Assembly (NCBI GenBank): GCA_902591485.1
Contig: CACJAV010000001.1
Span: 142,563 to 206,562 of the forward strand
Direction: 5' to 3'
From: an uncultured Alphaproteobacteria bacterium
GTDB taxonomy: Bacteria > Pseudomonadota > Alphaproteobacteria > HIMB59 > GCA-002718135
Length of the DNA stretch: 64,000 nt
Each line of letters starts with the position of its first letter. Position 1 is the stretch's first letter. The notes beneath the pieces were generated by a model that worked only from the letters and a program-made list of their open reading frames with translations, was not told the origin of the DNA and did not search any database. Shown here one piece after another: positions 19,590-50,768 of this stretch. Position numbers and translations under genes: made by a program.

Positions 19590-21644
19590 ATGAAAAATAA
19601 CTGGAATCAAAATGAAGCAAATAATTTTATTAAATCATATAAGCAAAAAAATATATCGAAAGATTTAGCTTTAAGAGTTTATACTACGCAACTGTTAGGT
19701 AAAAATAATAAATTAGTTCTTCATGGTGGCGGAAATACATCACTGAAAACAACTGCAAAAAATATTTTTGGAGAAAAAATTGACGTTATGCATGTCAAAG
19801 GTAGTGGTTGGGATATGGGATCAATTGACTCTCCTGGTCTACCAGCAGTTGAATTAGATCCATTACTAAAAACAAAAAAATTATCTAAATTAAATGATTT
19901 TGATATGGTCAACCTTCAAAGAAGATGTCTGCTAGACTCAAAATCACCAAATCCTTCAGTAGAAACGTTACTTCATGCTTTTCTACCTTTTAAATTCATA
20001 GATCACACTCATGCAAATGCTATTTTAAGTTTAATTGATCAACCAAATGATGTTGAAATTTGTAAAAAAATATTTGGTAAAAAAATGGGTATTGTTCCAT
20101 ATGTAATTCCTGGATTTGATTTAGCAAAATTAGCTTACAAAGTTTTTAAAGAAAATGAAAAAGTAGAAGGATTAATTTTATTAAATCATGGCATATTTAC
20201 TTTTGGTAATACAGCTAAAGAAAGTTATGATCGAATGATTAAATATGTAACAATAGCTGAAAAAGAGTTGAGTAAATACAAAAATAATATCTTAAATAAA
20301 AAAAATAATTCAAAGAAAAACAACAAATTAAAAAGTCATATTATTTTACCATTAATAAGAAAAAACCTATCAGTTAAAAATGAAAATGGAGATTACACAA
20401 AATGGATTTTCGATATACGAGTTAATAAAAATATACTTAATTATTTAGATCATAAAAATTTAAAAAATTTTACAAGCAGAGGCACAGTAACACCTGATCA
20501 TGTGATTAGAACAAAATCAAAACCTCTTATTCTAAATATTGGGAATTTAAATCAAGTTAAAATTGATTATTTGCTTCATAAAGAAATAGAAAAATATAAA
20601 AAAAACTACAAAAAATATTATTTAAAAAATAAAAAATTTGAAAAAAATGCAATTGAGCTTGATGGAAATCCAAGGTTAATTTTTATTCCAAATTTTGGAA
20701 TTGTCGCAATTGGTCGATCAAAAAAGGAAGCTAAAATTGCTGGAGACTTAGCTGAAGCTCAAGTAGATATCATTTCGAAGGCAGAGTCATTTGGAAGATT
20801 TTCCTCTATATCTGAAAAAGAAATTTTTAAAGTTGAATATTGGCCATTAGAGCAAGCTAAATTGAAAACTTTAAAAAGGGCAAAATTAACTAGCAATGTA
20901 GTTGTTATAAGTGGTGGTTGTGGTGCTATTGGCTTAGCAATAGCAAAAGAATTTTTAATGAATGGAGCTGAAGTAGTTCTTCTAGAAAATAACTCAATTA
21001 ATATAAAAAATACACCAACGGACATTGCAAATAATTGCACTATTATAAAATGTGACGTTACAAATAGTAATAATGTCAATAAAGCAATTGTAAAAATTGT
21101 TGATATTTATGGTGGTATCGACATTATGGTTTCTAATGCTGGAGCAGCATGGCAAGGGGAAATTGGTAAAGTTAATACAAAGATACTGAAAGAGAGTTTT
21201 GATCTCAACTTTTTTGCTCATCAATACTTATCTCAAGCTTGCATTGATATTATGTTAAAACAACAAACTGGAGGTGTGCTTTTATTTAATATTACAAAGC
21301 AAGCAATTAATCCTGGCAATAACTTTGGGCCTTACGGCATACCAAAAGCATCGACTTTATTTTTAATGAGGCAATATACATTAGAATATGGAAAATTTGG
21401 AATAAGATCAAATGGTGTAAATCCAGATAGAATTAGATCTGGTTTAGTCAGTGACAAGATGATAGCATCCAGATCAAAGGCTAGAAATGTTTCTGAAAAA
21501 GAATACATGTCAGGAAATTTACTAAAGGAAGAAGTTTTAGCTGAAGATGTAGGGAAAGCTTTCCTATCTCTTGCTTTAGCTAAAAAAACAACAGGTGATG
21601 TTATGACGGTAGATGGAGGAAATATTCAAGCTGTTTTAAGATAA
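19590..21644 (+). CDS. Bifunctional class-II aldolase/short-chain dehydrogenase (RhaD-like rhamnulose-1-phosphate aldolase/dehydrogenase architecture)
   Basis: N-terminal aldolase (LVLHGGGNTSLKT, HVKGSGWDMGSIDSPGLPAV, FIDHTHANAILSL, LLNHGIFTFG); C-terminal SDR (VVISGGCGAIGLAIAKEF, SNAG, YGIPKAS). Confidence 0.9.
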   Translation: MKNNWNQNEANNFIKSYKQKNISKDLALRVYTTQLLGKNNKLVLHGGGNTSLKTTAKNIFGEKIDVMHVKGSGWDMGSIDSPGLPAVELDPLLKTKKLSKLNDFDMVNLQRRCLLDSKSPNPSVETLLHAFLPFKFIDHTHANAILSLIDQPNDVEICKKIFGKKMGIVPYVIPGFDLAKLAYKVFKENEKVEGLILLNHGIFTFGNTAKESYDRMIKYVTIAEKELSKYKNNILNKKNNSKKNNKLKSHIILPLIRKNLSVKNENGDYTKWIFDIRVNKNILNYLDHKNLKNFTSRGTVTPDHVIRTKSKPLILNIGNLNQVKIDYLLHKEIEKYKKNYKKYYLKNKKFEKNAIELDGNPRLIFIPNFGIVAIGRSKKEAKIAGDLAEAQVDIISKAESFGRFSSISEKEIFKVEYWPLEQAKLKTLKRAKLTSNVVVISGGCGAIGLAIAKEFLMNGAEVVLLENNSINIKNTPTDIANNCTIIKCDVTNSNNVNKAIVKIVDIYGGIDIMVSNAGAAWQGEIGKVNTKILKESFDLNFFAHQYLSQACIDIMLKQQTGGVLLFNITKQAINPGNNFGPYGIPKASTLFLMRQYTLEYGKFGIRSNGVNPDRIRSGLVSDKMIASRSKARNVSEKEYMSGNLLKEEVLAEDVGKAFLSLALAKKTTGDVMTVDGGNIQAVLR

Positions 21645-23355: not shown

Positions 23356-23392
23356 AAAATTAAGTTAAAAGAAAAAAGCAGCTTAATTTTTT
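23356..23392. terminator. Probable bidirectional terminator between convergent genes
   Basis: AAAATTAAG...CTTAATTTTTT inverted repeat between the convergent ybaK-like and serB stop codons. Confidence 0.5.
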
Positions 23393-24276
23393 ATTCCCAT
23401 AAAATACAATAAAGATGTTAAATCTGTATTATTTATTTGGTTTTCAAAATTGGCTTTAACAATATCTTGAGCTTTAAATGCTATTGGCAATCCAACTGAT
23501 AGTAGCATGTTCATATCATTAGCTGCATCACCCATTCCTATAATTTGATCACTATTAATTTTTAATTCTTTAGATATTTTTTTTACAATCTTTTGCTTGT
23601 AATTAGCATTTACTATCGGTCCCACTGTTTTACCATTAAAAAGATCTCCAATAACACCAAATGTATTTGAATATTCTTGATCAATTTTGAGATAACTTCT
23701 AACATAACTAGTAATTGGTTTGAAACCTCCAGAGACCAATATTGTATGTATTTTATTATTTTTTAATTCTTGAAACAATTTTTTTGCGCCTTTCATAAAA
23801 GAAACAATTCGTTTTGCCTCCTCTAAAGATGATAAACGTAATCCTTTTAAAAGATGTACTCTGTTCTCAAGGGAGGTAGAAAAATCTAATCTACCTTTTA
23901 AACCAAGGTCAGTAATTTTTTTTACTTGTTCCCCCTTACCCAAAAATTTTGCAATATCATTTAATGTTTCATTTTCAATAATAGTACCGTCCATATCTGT
24001 AATTAATACTTTCTTTTTTCTTAATGATGAATTTTGAATACAGAAATCAACTTTAATTTTGTTAACTCTTTTTTTTAAATTTTTTAATTTAAAATAACTT
24101 AAATTATCATTAAAATAATAATCACAAGCTTTATTTTTTTTTAAAACTGATTGTTTTTCAATTTTTATATCTAGAGATAAAAAAAAATTTCTTATGATTG
24201 TTGTTAGTCTTTGATAATTAGTTATTTCGGCATCTTTTAATACAAATGTTAAAACGAAATTTTTATCATACTTCAT
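23383..24276 (-). CDS. serB: Phosphoserine phosphatase
   Basis: HAD motifs: VLITDMDGTIIENETLNDIA, TILVSGGFKPITSYV, GMGDAANDMNML. ATGA overlap with the serA fusion. Confidence 0.92.
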   Translation of the reverse strand: MKYDKNFVLTFVLKDAEITNYQRLTTIIRNFFLSLDIKIEKQSVLKKNKACDYYFNDNLSYFKLKNLKKRVNKIKVDFCIQNSSLRKKKVLITDMDGTIIENETLNDIAKFLGKGEQVKKITDLGLKGRLDFSTSLENRVHLLKGLRLSSLEEAKRIVSFMKGAKKLFQELKNNKIHTILVSGGFKPITSYVRSYLKIDQEYSNTFGVIGDLFNGKTVGPIVNANYKQKIVKKISKELKINSDQIIGMGDAANDMNMLLSVGLPIAFKAQDIVKANFENQINNTDLTSLLYFMGIKN

Positions 24277-26027
24277 ATTACAATCGACTTTACTTGATTT
24301 ACATATTTAATTTTTCTAAGTGAATTTAATAATATTTCATCACATAATTGATCAGTTTGTATTAGAGCTATTGCTTCGCCGTTTTGAGATACCCTACCTA
24401 GATTAAAAGTTGCTATGTTGATTTTATTTTTAGTTAGAATTTGTGTAATATTGTTAATCACTCCCACCTTATCTTTATTAGTTATATAAATATTAAAATT
24501 TCCTAACTCAGCGTCTATCTTAATTCCTTTTATTTCAACTATTCTTGCATTCCCTCCAAAAATTGAACCTGCTACAGATCGAGATCTTCTATCAGTGGTC
24601 ACAGTTAACCTTATAAGTGTGTTGTATTCTGATGGATGATCATTTTTTAAAGTTGAAATTTTAATATTTCGTGATTTGGCGATTTCAATTGCATTGATAG
24701 TATTTACATTATCAACAAATGAAGCTAAAAGATTGTGAACTACGCTTCTAGTTATTAAATCTTGATTTATCATAGAAGCTGTTCCCTCAAACTCAATTGT
24801 AATTGCCTTTATTGCATTTTCAGTTAATTGACCTGCAAAAGATCCAATTTTTAGAGATAAATCTAAATAAGGACCTAAAATTTTTCTTTCATTACCAGTA
24901 ATTGAGGACATGTTGACAGAGTTAATCACTGTGTCATTTTTTAAATAATCAGATATCTGATTTGATATTTGAATTGATGCTGCATTTTGTGCCTCTATAG
25001 TAGATGCACCTAGATGAGGAGTAAGAATAATATTATCAAGGGAATGTAATGAAGAATTTGTAAGAGGTTCATTCTCAAAAACATCAAGAGCAGCGCCAGT
25101 AATTAATTTTCTTTTTAAAGCACTATATAAATCTTTTTCATTAATGAGCCCTCCTCTTGCAGCATTAACTAAATATGATGTTTTTTTCATTTTTTTAATT
25201 TTCTTTAGGTCAATGATGTTTTTTGTATTTTTCATCAGAGGAAGATGCAAAGAAACAAAATCAGAATTTTTTAAAACTTCATCTAAAGAAGATTTCTCAG
25301 CATCAAGAGATTCAATTCTTTCAGCACTGAGAAATGGATCATACACCATGACGTTCATTTCTAATGATTTTGCAATTCTTGCAACTTCAGAACCTATGTT
25401 ACCACAACCAACTAAACCTATTGTTTTGGATTTTAATTCTATTCCTTTAAAAAGTTCTTTTTCCCATTTTTTTTGAATTGTAGAATGATGAGCAAAAGGA
25501 ATTTTTCTAGCAAGAGAAAATACCAGACTAATTGCATGCTCAGCAGTAGTTCTTGAAGTACTTTGAGGAGAATTCATTACTACAACCCCCCTATTAGTTG
25601 CTGTTGTTACATTTACATTATCAACACCAACACCAGCTCTAGCAATAACTTTTAAACGATTAGATTTTTCAATGATTTTTTTTGTAACTTTCGTTGATGA
25701 TCTTACTACAATGCCATCATAATTAGAAATAATAGATAAAATCTGATCTTCTGTAAGATTATATTTTTTATCAATTAATATATTATTATCTTTAAAAATT
25801 TTAAAAGAAGCATCAGAAATTTTATCAGCTATTAAAACTTTAAAACTAGTCTTACTTTTGATGGATCCAATAGATTGAGCTGATAAGTTTGGTTTATAAC
25901 TATGTTTTTTGGCTAATCTTAAAATCGTGTCTTTAGTTTTTTTACTAATGTCTGGGTAATCATTTAGAGCTCTTGATATAGTCGATGGATTTATACCAAT
26001 TCTTTTTGAAAATTCTTTTAGATTCAT
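24273..26027 (-). CDS. serA: LacI-type DNA-binding domain fused to D-3-phosphoglycerate dehydrogenase (SerA)
   Basis: Residues 1 to about 60, MNLKEFSKRIGINPSTISRALNDYPDISKKTKDTILRLAKKHSYKPNLSAQSIGSIKS, form a LacI HTH plus hinge. From about residue 63, FKVLIADKISDASFKIF...ARAGVGVDNVNVTTA...GLVGCGNIGSEVA...AARGGLINEKDL...TPHLGASTIEAQ... is SerA, ending in an ACT-like region (NIYITNKDKVGVINNITQILTKNKINIATFNLGR). Confidence 0.93.
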   Translation of the reverse strand: MNLKEFSKRIGINPSTISRALNDYPDISKKTKDTILRLAKKHSYKPNLSAQSIGSIKSKTSFKVLIADKISDASFKIFKDNNILIDKKYNLTEDQILSIISNYDGIVVRSSTKVTKKIIEKSNRLKVIARAGVGVDNVNVTTATNRGVVVMNSPQSTSRTTAEHAISLVFSLARKIPFAHHSTIQKKWEKELFKGIELKSKTIGLVGCGNIGSEVARIAKSLEMNVMVYDPFLSAERIESLDAEKSSLDEVLKNSDFVSLHLPLMKNTKNIIDLKKIKKMKKTSYLVNAARGGLINEKDLYSALKRKLITGAALDVFENEPLTNSSLHSLDNIILTPHLGASTIEAQNAASIQISNQISDYLKNDTVINSVNMSSITGNERKILGPYLDLSLKIGSFAGQLTENAIKAITIEFEGTASMINQDLITRSVVHNLLASFVDNVNTINAIEIAKSRNIKISTLKNDHPSEYNTLIRLTVTTDRRSRSVAGSIFGGNARIVEIKGIKIDAELGNFNIYITNKDKVGVINNITQILTKNKINIATFNLGRVSQNGEAIALIQTDQLCDEILLNSLRKIKYVNQVKSIVI

Positions 26028-26045
26028 ACGAAATCGATTTCGTAT
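26026..26045. promoter_or_regulatory. Putative LacI/PurR-type operator overlapping the serA-fusion start codon
   Basis: Perfect 20-bp palindrome ATACGAAATCGATTTCGTAT with a central CG; overlaps the ATG (26025-26027). Confidence 0.7.
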
Positions 26046-45497: not shown

Positions 45498-48350
45498 TTA
45501 GGCATTTGATACGTCTTCATAATCTTCAATAGGCGGACATACACAAAAAAGATTTCTGTCACCATAAACATTATCAATTCTTGCAACTGGTGGCCAATAT
45601 TTATTGTTATAAAGATATGAGTGAGGAAATACTGCTTCTGATCTTGAATATTTATGCTCCCACGCATCAGATGATACTTCTTCTATTGTATGAGGTGAGT
45701 TTTTAATTGGATTGTCTTCAGAGTCATAGGTTCCATTACGAACTTTCTCAATTTCCTTGTGAATAGATATCATTGCAGTACAAAATCTATCTATTTCTTC
45801 TTTCGACTCACTTTCTGTTGGCTCAATCATTAAAGTACCAGGTACAGGAAAAGACATCGTTGGTGCATGGAAGCCATAATCAATCAGTCTTTTGGCAATA
45901 TCTTCTTCTGATATATTCAACTCTTCTTTGATAGGCCTAATATCTATTATACATTCATGAGCAACCATTCCGTTTTTGCCAGAATACAAAAGTGGAAAAT
46001 ATTCTTTTAATTTTTCCTTAATATAATTAGCATTTAGGATTGCTACCTGTGTTGCAAGTTTTAATCCTTCATCACCCATCATTGAAATATATGAATATGA
46101 AATTGGCAAAATTGATGGACTACCCCAAGGAGCTGCAGAAACTGCATCTAAACTAGTTAGTCCTAGTTCATTTTGTACAATAGGATGTCCAGGTAAAAAA
46201 TTTTCTAAATGTGATTTAACACCAATTGGTCCCATACCGGGACCTCCACCACCATGGGGAATACAAAATGTTTTATGCAGATTCATATGCGAAACATCAG
46301 GTCCAAATTTTCCCGGTTTGGCAATTCCTACCATGGCGTTTAAGTTAGCACCATCCATATAAACCTGGCCTCCTGCATTATGAATTTTTTCACAGATAAT
46401 TGAGATTGATTCCTCAAAAACTCCATGCGTAGATGGATAGGTAATCATTAAAGCTGATAATTTATTGCCAGCTTCTTTAATTTTGTCATCTAAATGATTT
46501 AAATCAACATTACCTAAATTATCACATTTTACTATTGAAACTTCCATACCACACATTTGTGCGCTGGCTGGATTTGTCCCATGAGCACTATTAGGTATCA
46601 AACATATGTTTCTATCACCTTGTTTATTAGCTTCATGATATTTTTTAATAGCAAGTAAACCCGAAAACTCTCCCTGTGCTCCAGCATTAGGCTGTAATGA
46701 TATAGCATCAAAGCCAGTTATATCCTTTAACATCGAAATTAACTCTCTCAACATTTGATTATAACCTTCTCTTTGATGTTTTTCTAAAAAAGGATGAGCA
46801 TTTGCAAATCCTGGAAGAGTTATAGGTAGCATTTCTGAAGCAGCATTTAACTTCATAGTGCATGACCCAAGAGGAATCATAGATCTGTTAAGTGCAATAT
46901 CTTTATTTTCTAATTTTTTTAAATATCTCATCATTTCTGTTTCTGAATGATAAATATTAAATATAGGGTGTGTTAAGATCTTATCATCTCTTAGCAAATC
47001 ATTTTCTTTAAAAATTTCATCAAGATTTTCTTCAATATTCTTAGTGTCTAACGTTTTGTTTTCAGTATTGAAAAAAGTTATAAGATTATCAATGTCTTCC
47101 AGAGTTGTTGTTTCATCAATTGTCAAAGAGAGGGTTTTGTCATCAATCAATCTAAAATTAATACCCTCCTCAACTGATTTGTTAAACCAGTCTTTAGCTT
47201 TATTATCGTGAATAACTAAAGTGTCAAAATAGCGACGAGAAAGAATTTTAAAACCTAGTTTTTCCAATGATTTTTTAAGATATCGAGCATTGTAATTAAT
47301 AGTTTTAGCAATATTTATTAATCTCTCAGGACCATGATAAATAGCATAAGCTGCAGCAATAATTGCCAATAAAGCTTGTGCAGTACAAATATTGCTGGTT
47401 GCTTTTTCTCTTCGAATATGTTGCTCCCGAGTTTGAAGAGCCATTCTGTAAGATCTTTTATTATTTCTATCAACGGAAACACCAATTAATCGACCTGGCA
47501 TTAATCTTTTAAATTCATCTTTTGTTGCAAAAAATGCTGCATGAGGTCCGCCAAATCCCATAGGGACACCAAATCGTTGTGAACTGCCTATAACTATATC
47601 AGCATCATAAAAACCTGGTGATTTCATTATAATCATGCTCATGATGTCAGCAGCAACTATACTAATAATATTCTTAGATTTATTATCGGAAATCAATTTA
47701 TCTAGGTTTTCTATCTCACCGTAAGTATCTGGATTTTGTATTAAGCAACCAAAAGTATCTTCATCAGGTTGACCGATGATAATTTTTATACCAAGAGGAT
47801 TAGCTCTCGTTTTTAGAACAGATAGAGTTTGAGGATGGCAGCTATTTTGAATACAAAAAGTATGTTGCTTACTTTTTTTAATTTTATAGGCCATCATCAT
47901 AGCTTCAGCTGCAGCAGTACTTTCATCTAATAAAGATGCATTTGCAATGTCCATACCAGTTAAATCAATAATCATTTGCTGAAAATTCATCAGCATTTCC
48001 AAGCGACCTTGGGACACTTCAGGCTGATATGGCGTGTATGCAGTATACCATCCAGGATTTTCCAAAATATTTCTTAAAATTACACTAGGGGTAATAGTAT
48101 TATGGTAACCAAGACCAATATATGTTTTTTTAAATTTATTTTTTAAAGATAATAATTGCATATTTACTTTATTGAAATCTTCAGACATTCCAGGTTTTAA
48201 TTTTAACTTATCCGTAAATAGAATATGTTCAGGAACAGTTTTTTTAATTAATTCATCTAGACTTTTACAGTTAACAATTTTTAGCATTGCTGCAATATCT
48301 TCATTTCGTGGTCCAATATGTCTGCTTGCAAATGAATTTATATTGATCAT
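45498..48350 (-). CDS. gcvP: Glycine dehydrogenase (glycine cleavage P protein)
   Basis: [59 protein letters not shown]. Confidence 0.98.
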
Positions 48351-48351
48351 A

Positions 48352-48723
48352 TTATTTATCCAAAAATTCTTTGTACTGATCCAATGTCATCAAATTATTT
48401 ACTTGGGAGATATCTGAAACTTTTAGTTTGAATATCCACCCTTCGTTTTCAGCGTCTTGATTGACAATCGATGCATCATTTGAGAGATTTTCATTTACTT
48501 CTAATACTTCACCATCAAGTGGTGAATAAATATCTGATGCAGCTTTAACAGACTCAATAACACAAAGTTCTTCTTTTGCTTTTACTTCTTTACCAATTGA
48601 TGGCAAATCAACGAAAACAATATCACCCAAACTCTCTTGAGCATGATCAGTGATACCTACTATTGCTGTATCACCCTCTAATTTAACCCATTCATGCTCT
48701 TCGGTATATTTTTTTTCAGACAT
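48352..48723 (-). CDS. gcvH: Glycine cleavage H protein (start corrected from ORF-track 48771)
   Basis: MSEKKYTEEHEWVKLEGDTAIVGITDHAQESLGDIVFVDLP...VIESVKAASDIYSPLDGEV. ATG at 48723 preceded by AAAAGGAGA. Confidence 0.96.
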   Translation of the reverse strand: MSEKKYTEEHEWVKLEGDTAIVGITDHAQESLGDIVFVDLPSIGKEVKAKEELCVIESVKAASDIYSPLDGEVLEVNENLSNDASIVNQDAENEGWIFKLKVSDISQVNNLMTLDQYKEFLDK

Positions 48724-48724
48724 A

Positions 48725-49837
48725 TTAATCTCCTTTTTTATAATTTTTTTTAACAAATGGAATTTTCTCAATTTGAATTTCTTCTAATTTATCACGAATA
48801 TTCACATATAATTTTTCTGACATATCCGACGTTTTATTTATATAACCTATGGCAATTGATTTTTTTAAAATTGGAGAATAACAGCCACTAGTAATTTTGC
48901 CAATTTCTTTATTATTTTTATTATGTAAAGTCATCTGAGCACGCAACATACTCTTGTTTATAGGACTTAATCCAATTTTTTTAATTGATTGAGATGTGTC
49001 AATTTCTTTGGATAATATATGAGAACAGTTTAAATTTTTATCATTCAATCTTTTTTTATCTAAAGCCCAAGATAAACCTGCTTGTATTGGATTGATTTCT
49101 TCACTTAATTCATTGCCATATAAACTTAGCCCCGCCTCCATTCTAAGTGAGTCTCTACATCCTAAACCACATAAAATTGTATTTTCATTTTTAATAATTT
49201 TTTGAACAAAATTTTCAGCTATATTATTTAATATAGATATTTCAAAACCATCTTCACCTGTATAACCAGATCTAGAGATAAAAACTTTAGTATTTTTATA
49301 TTCTAATATTTCAACATCTAAAAATTTCATTGAAGAGGATAAGTTTAGTATTGAGGTAATCACTGAAAATGAATCTGGACCTTGTAAGGCAACCAAACAT
49401 CTATCTTGAATGATTTTATAATTAAAAAGTATCTTTTCAAATATTTCATTAAGAACTTTTTTTCTTGAAGCATTATAAACAATATAAATATATTCCTCAT
49501 CTTCAATTTTAATCTTTGATACCATAATATCATCAATAACTCCTCCATGTGAGTTCAAAATAAATGAATAGTGACACTTATTGAATTGTAATAACTTAAT
49601 ATCTAGTGGAATATAAAACTCTAAAGCAAGAATATTTTCGCTAGTAAGAGAAATTAAGATTTGCCCCATGTGTGAAACATCAAAGAGACCTGCATGAGTT
49701 CTGACATGAATATGTTCATTAATAATTCCATATTTGTAGTTTATTGGCATATTATAGCCTGCAAAAGGAACAAACTTAGCGTTATTATTTTTATGAAAAT
49801 TATTTAAATAAATATTTTGTAGAGCTTCTTCAGTCAA
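48725..49837 (-). CDS. gcvT: Glycine cleavage T protein (aminomethyltransferase)
   Basis: FVPFAGYNMPINYKYGIINEHIHVRTHAGLFDVSHMGQI, SRSGYTGEDGFEI, GLGCRDSLRMEAGLSLYG. TTG start after GGAGAA. Confidence 0.96.
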   Translation of the reverse strand: MTEEALQNIYLNNFHKNNNAKFVPFAGYNMPINYKYGIINEHIHVRTHAGLFDVSHMGQILISLTSENILALEFYIPLDIKLLQFNKCHYSFILNSHGGVIDDIMVSKIKIEDEEYIYIVYNASRKKVLNEIFEKILFNYKIIQDRCLVALQGPDSFSVITSILNLSSSMKFLDVEILEYKNTKVFISRSGYTGEDGFEISILNNIAENFVQKIIKNENTILCGLGCRDSLRMEAGLSLYGNELSEEINPIQAGLSWALDKKRLNDKNLNCSHILSKEIDTSQSIKKIGLSPINKSMLRAQMTLHNKNNKEIGKITSGCYSPILKKSIAIGYINKTSDMSEKLYVNIRDKLEEIQIEKIPFVKKNYKKGD

Positions 49838-49844
49838 AAATTCT

Positions 49845-49998
49845 CCTGTCTAAGCCCTCTGTATTTTTACCTGAGAGTTTTTACTCCTTCGGTAGAGAAT
49901 AATCTCTTTTCCAGATTTTTATTTTAACGGTCCTTTTTGCCTGAGAGTTTCCGGGTCGTTGCTCCTTCGGCTCTGTATATTAACAGCATCTCCCGTTA
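49845..49998 (-). ncRNA. Tandem glycine riboswitch upstream of gcvT
   Basis: The minus strand carries two copies of the core: GAGCCGAAGGAGCAACGACCCGGAAACTCTCAGGCAAAAAGGACCG and CTACCGAAGGAGTAAAAACTCTCAGGTAAAAATACAGAGGG. Confidence 0.95.
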
Positions 49999-50032
49999 TA
50001 AGTTATTTATACTTATTTCTTATAATATTCAA

Positions 50033-50682: not shown

Positions 50683-50768
50683 TGTATCGTGCATTTCCTC
50701 CCGATACAAACTAAATAAAGTTTCCCTTATTTAATTTGCTTACTACCTTTGCGTGTAATAAGTAATTA
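50651..50768 (-). ncRNA. Candidate structured leader RNA or sRNA upstream of the deaminase gene
   Basis: Consecutive inverted repeats: TTACT/AGTAA; AAATTAAATAA/TTATTTAGTTT (11 bp with one G-U); GTATCG/CGATAC with loop GGAGGAAATGCA; then the terminator hairpin. No CDS covers it. Confidence 0.5.

Follow-up and report, generated by a model that had tools for sequence, protein, structure and literature searches.

Enzymes that carry a DNA-binding domain of their own are few, and each is informative on the link between metabolism and transcription. PutA, BirA and NadR are trigger enzymes of this kind, in which a metabolic enzyme is fused to a DNA-binding domain; to our knowledge, neither a LacI head nor a SerA body occurs in any of them. 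A 2-hydroxyacid dehydrogenase fold serves transcription control in CtBP. In repressors of the LacI family, the hinge helices of two subunits pair at the centre of the operator. Type-I 3-phosphoglycerate dehydrogenases (PGDH, SerA) are inhibited by serine. In MocR/GabR-type regulators, an aminotransferase-like domain carries a head of the GntR family (PMC5320631). The operators of LacI-family regulators are in most cases even palindromes centred on a CG pair (1173 of 1303 regulators), and autoregulation is found in most local LacI regulators (PMC4052901).

Here we describe a LacI-type head joined to a complete SerA. The window (the whole 64-kb stretch of DNA analysed; GC content 29%) belongs to an assembly of 1.43 Mb in 54 contigs. 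Positions 24273-26027 of its minus strand form one unbroken ORF of 584 aa with an ATG start, in which a LacI HTH and hinge (residues 1-55) are followed by a complete type-I PGDH (residues 62-584). The sequence-only reading had proposed such an uninterrupted frame, and profile searches recognised both partners on the one protein. Pfam LacI matched residues 3-47 with 29.9 bits (cut-off 27; E = 4.8e-7), and the NCBIfam PGDH equivalog TIGR01327 matched residues 63-583 with 581.6 bits (cut-off 454; E = 1.6e-174). The Pfam ACT model gave 24.0 bits on residues 513-572, slightly below its cut-off of 27. No Pfam match to a periplasmic-binding-protein-like effector domain was found in the fusion; PGDH fills residues 62-584, which bears out the earlier view that a whole enzyme replaces the LacI effector domain. 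The features of the locus are collected in Table 1.

Table 1. Features of the fused serA gene, its operon and its putative operator (positions in the window)
Feature	Position	Strand	Evidence or remark
Putative operator, perfect 20-bp palindrome ATACGAAATCGATTTCGTAT	26026..26045		Central CG; two bases shared with the ATG
LacI-type HTH head, residues 1-47	25887..26027	-	Pfam LacI, AlphaFold2 helices, Foldseek, dN/dS
Hinge helix and short linker, residues 48-61	25845..25886	-	PurR/LacI hinge alignment, conservation among fusions
SerA catalytic part (substrate- and NAD-binding domains), residues 62-374	24906..25844	-	TIGR01327, 2-Hacid_dh, 2-Hacid_dh_C
PGDH intervening domain, residues 384-500	24528..24878	-	Pfam PF19304 (PGDH_inter), E 1.3e-33
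ACT domain, residues 513-583	24279..24491	-	Pfam ACT sub-threshold, TIGR01327 coverage, D519 and N537 invariant
serB, phosphoserine phosphatase, second operon gene	23383..24276	-	TIGR00338, 188 bits against a cut-off of 144

In an AlphaFold2 model of the fusion, which is a monomer prediction, the head helices spanned residues 3-10, 14-21 and 29-41. The PGDH was well modelled (mean pLDDT 88), and the hinge and linker (residues 49-60) were of low confidence. A hinge helix was predicted at residues 48-54, also at low confidence, as expected without DNA. Residues 48-61 could be aligned with the hinge of PurR and LacI. Using the head alone, Foldseek retrieved the repressor–DNA complexes of SghR, CcpA, LacI and PurR with a probability of 1.00; the E values were at least 0.006, the model being so short. 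By Pfam, alignment and fold, the HTH is like that of the LacI/PurR repressors, and the hinge may be so too. The fusion has a LacI head, yet it is not a full member of the LacI family, since the effector domain is missing and its position is taken by a full PGDH.

The body matched the structures of Mycobacterium tuberculosis SerA (3dc2, 1ygy). The catalytic, intervening and ACT domains follow each other in identical order in the two proteins, whereas the fusion adds a 61-residue DNA-binding head and linker and a putative operator at its own start. R291, E320 and H338, which correspond to the catalytic Arg, Glu and His of 2-hydroxyacid dehydrogenases, were invariant among 21 sequences, and the NAD motif was intact. 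Judged by these residues and TIGR01327, the fusion belongs to the SerA family. The ACT residues D519 and N537 were likewise invariant among 21 sequences; they are presumably two of the three serine contacts of M. tuberculosis SerA, the third having changed from Tyr to Asn. Animal CtBP corepressors were among the sequence matches. In contrast to the fusion, they have no DNA-binding domain of their own, work via partner proteins and are of separate origin.

The junction had been described as free of start codons. This observation extends to codons 2-140 of the fusion genes in both the genome of the window (G000) and a second species of the genus (G035), neither of which contains ATG, GTG, TTG or CTG in that region, so that SerA is left without an ordinary internal start. 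The nearest unfused SerAs begin with MYKVLIADKLS, and the fusion reads SFKVLIADKIS at that point; therefore, the entire enzyme minus its first Met has been joined to the hinge.

We searched related genomes for the same architecture. The search covered 102 genomes from the genus and 163 from the order, and a long PGDH occurred in only three. Besides G000, these were G035, with a full-length fusion that is 81% identical, and a third congener (G006), in which residues 53-584 were matched at 82% identity. The reading of G006 as an unfused SerA was rejected: its contig terminates inside the linker (IGSIKTSNSF), and since the head side is lost to the contig end, G006 is no counterexample. In another order, one of the 198 genomes searched (G907, 98% complete) encodes the full fusion with 63% identity; it is the sole carrier among the 54 genomes of its family. 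The linker motif IGSIK is conserved in all four copies. Among 399 genomes of the phylum, a match reaching into the head was obtained for the window only. In many GC-rich genomes, the long frames that precede SerA proved to be read-through (HTH in 0 of 80 public and 0 of 19 class loci checked), and the best other head of G064 was part of an ordinary LacI gene. No report of a LacI–SerA fusion was found in the open-licence papers searched, a scope in which absence is not proof; to that extent, the suggestion that the architecture had not been described still holds.

Phylogenetic analysis placed the four SerA parts in one clade (100/100) on a long branch (0.84). Its sister was a set of unfused SerAs (99/94), one of which shows the gene order serC-serA-serB. 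Because the SerA parts form one clade with an unfused sister, a single fusion event is the simplest account.

The serB gene overlaps the fused serA by four bases (ATGA) and adjoins it in G035, G006 and G907 as well. Within the genus, serB scored above the model cut-off in 4 of 102 genomes and serC in 84 of 102. Where close relatives have no fusion, a YbaK-like gene or typA comes immediately after the upstream EamA gene; in G000 and G035, serA-serB lies between neighbours of this kind, and in G907 the genes flanking the fusion are wholly different. This comparison of neighbourhoods indicates that serA-serB is either a gained cassette or was lost by most lineages. What lies beside the EamA gene varies within the genus (loci L174-L182 and L106): YbaK, typA or serA-serB can follow, and the site is possibly a hot spot of gene exchange. 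SAR11 bacteria vary in serABC and in serine prototrophy (PMC10030771).

In every comparison of coordinates, G000 and G035 among them, a short SerA without an HTH lay beside serC; these cells therefore possess the fused enzyme as a second PGDH-like protein. The G000 assembly is broken inside serC, as pieces of this gene are found at two contig ends (C1:3-590 and C31:7776-8099). With a short SerA at hand, as in most of the genus, the fusion might be mainly a regulator whose PGDH body senses 3-phosphoglycerate, NAD(H) or serine, while the ordinary second SerA performs catalysis. The long branch of the fused clade is consistent with such a specialisation, but the catalytic residues and the NAD motif are intact, the fusion is co-transcribed with a serB that most of the genus is without by the serB model, and the regulatory domains have diverged more than the catalytic part. 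We consider a mainly regulatory role to be unlikely and favour a fusion that is both enzyme and regulator.

No riboswitch was found near serA. At 49918-50005 (-), immediately upstream of a set of gcvT-gcvH-gcvP-like genes (45498-49837), lies an aptamer of the glycine riboswitch (RF00504 in Rfam; 63.2 bits). RNA is the glycine sensor at these genes, whereas serA-serB is without a riboswitch. An IMES-4 RNA motif (RF02037; 101.4 bits), known from marine metagenomes and of unknown role, was located at 50683-50762 (-); its neighbours are a deaminase-like gene and a transporter of the EamA type. Elsewhere in the window, 19590-21644 (+) encodes a 684-aa protein in which an aldolase-type domain seems to precede a short-chain dehydrogenase domain, as judged by eye from the translation; the gene run around it resembles sugar catabolism.

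A self-directed operator at the start of the fused gene had also been suggested. The core of the palindrome is the 16-bp sequence ACGAAATCGATTTCGT (26028-26043), which is of the PurR/LacI type with a central CG. In the window, ATACGAAATCGATTTCGTAT was the sole perfect central-CG palindrome with arms of at least 8 bp. A first-order Markov model of the window predicts 0.19 such palindromes on average, and the presence of the palindrome by itself is therefore modest evidence. The 16-bp core was identical letter for letter in G000, G035 and G907, 0-4 bp ahead of the fusion ATG, and the 54 aligned bases flanking the palindrome were 28-35% identical, which is background for the composition. This conservation between species and orders is strong evidence that the core serves as an operator. 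Among the 216 loci fetched, the exact 16-mer occurred at fusion genes only. No second site within two mismatches of the core was present in G000 or G035; the search for further operator sites returned three-mismatch matches only, and these were fewer than a reversed control pattern gave. Promoter scans yielded scores no better than those of shuffles, and the notion that the operator covers the promoter thus rests on operator position.

An even central-CG palindrome of 16-20 bp at the own gene is a further likeness to the LacI/PurR repressors. Palindromes built on the same central-CG plan but with other letters, for example AACCAAAACGTTTTGGTA, precede LacI genes of the genus. One such core, ACCAAAACGTTTTGG(T), precedes several ordinary LacI genes of the genus (L120, L121, L126, L132, L134 and L146). 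In the two ACCAAAACGTTTTGG(T) loci read, sugar-binding-protein genes lie beside the LacI gene, and this core is likely the operator of a genus-wide sugar regulon.

The palindrome at serA might instead be the site of another LacI-family regulator, with the fusion head binding elsewhere or only oligomerising. G000 does encode further LacI-type heads (on contigs C4 and C50), but these are just 35-37% identical to the fusion head. The same 16-mer accompanies the fusion in two orders despite different neighbours, and a separate regulator is also difficult to reconcile with the lack of other close sites in G000 and G035. We judge this explanation to be quite improbable; that the fusion would target its own operator is strongly supported by the comparison of genomes.

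Between G000 and G035, the dN/dS ratio was about 0.13 for the head, at a dS above 1 (saturated), and 0.10 for the enzyme. This pattern of substitution indicates that the head is under purifying selection. Between G000 and G907, identity was 79% in the head, 66% in the catalytic part and 57% in the regulatory domains. The nearest other heads (≈ 42-50% identical) came from within the genus, from ordinary LacI regulators of the sugar type, which are a likely source of the domain. A functionless passenger would agree with a head carried by few genomes only; given the low dN/dS, an identity between orders above that of the enzyme and an operator preserved to the letter, we find it very hard to accept. 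Chance and an assembly chimera are excluded by the recurrence of the full-length fusion, with the same junction, in genomes that are 63-81% identical in protein, and separate translation of two proteins is very unlikely in view of the start-free codons of both genus copies, the headless G006 being explained solely by its contig end.

We propose that this PGDH is probably a repressor of its own serA-serB operon that is tuned by a ligand, with serine as the likeliest signal. In the oligomeric enzyme, a pair of LacI heads would bind the palindrome at the start codon, and their binding would block transcription of serA-serB. Because the PGDH body replaces the usual effector domain, a ligand of the enzyme would tune DNA binding, the body carrying the signal in place of the sugar-binding domain. 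For control of transcription by the state of the enzyme, it is the conserved operator that speaks. Some doubt remains as to whether two PGDH N-termini can approach each other closely enough at the operator centre. Serine, acting via the ACT and intervening domains, would be a corepressor, which would combine feedback inhibition and gene repression in a single protein. Serine gating of binding is plausible, since the active-site residues and presumably two of the three serine contacts are kept. For a biosynthetic operon, serine as corepressor would also be the simplest arrangement, given that type-I PGDHs are serine-inhibited and that D519 and N537 are invariant. Taken on its own, the choice of serine as the signal is tentative and falls below an even chance. 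The most complete version of the model may come slightly nearer to even, though still short of it: a LacI effector body was replaced once by a serine-feedback dehydrogenase, and the resulting enzyme senses serine, inhibits itself and represses its own operon via one operator, forming a new class in two orders of small-genome bacteria.

The fusion would thus be a trigger enzyme of the HTH-headed kind, in a new form. It resembles PutA, BirA and NadR in uniting a metabolic enzyme and a DNA-binding domain in one chain, with expected control of the own pathway; these proteins serve other pathways, with ribbon-helix-helix, winged-helix or other HTH types as their DNA-binding domains. MocR/GabR regulators similarly attach a DNA-binding head to an enzyme fold of amino-acid metabolism, but they use a GntR winged helix, with a PLP fold as the sensor, and have neither a LacI head nor a dehydrogenase.

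The fusion brings together a head of the LacI type, one of the best-understood modules of DNA recognition, and an enzyme with well-studied serine allostery, and its likely target operator is identified. The coupling of a catalytic body to a LacI head is now directly testable. For small genomes, the arrangement suggests a compact regulation of the serine operon in which a separate regulator gene would not be needed.
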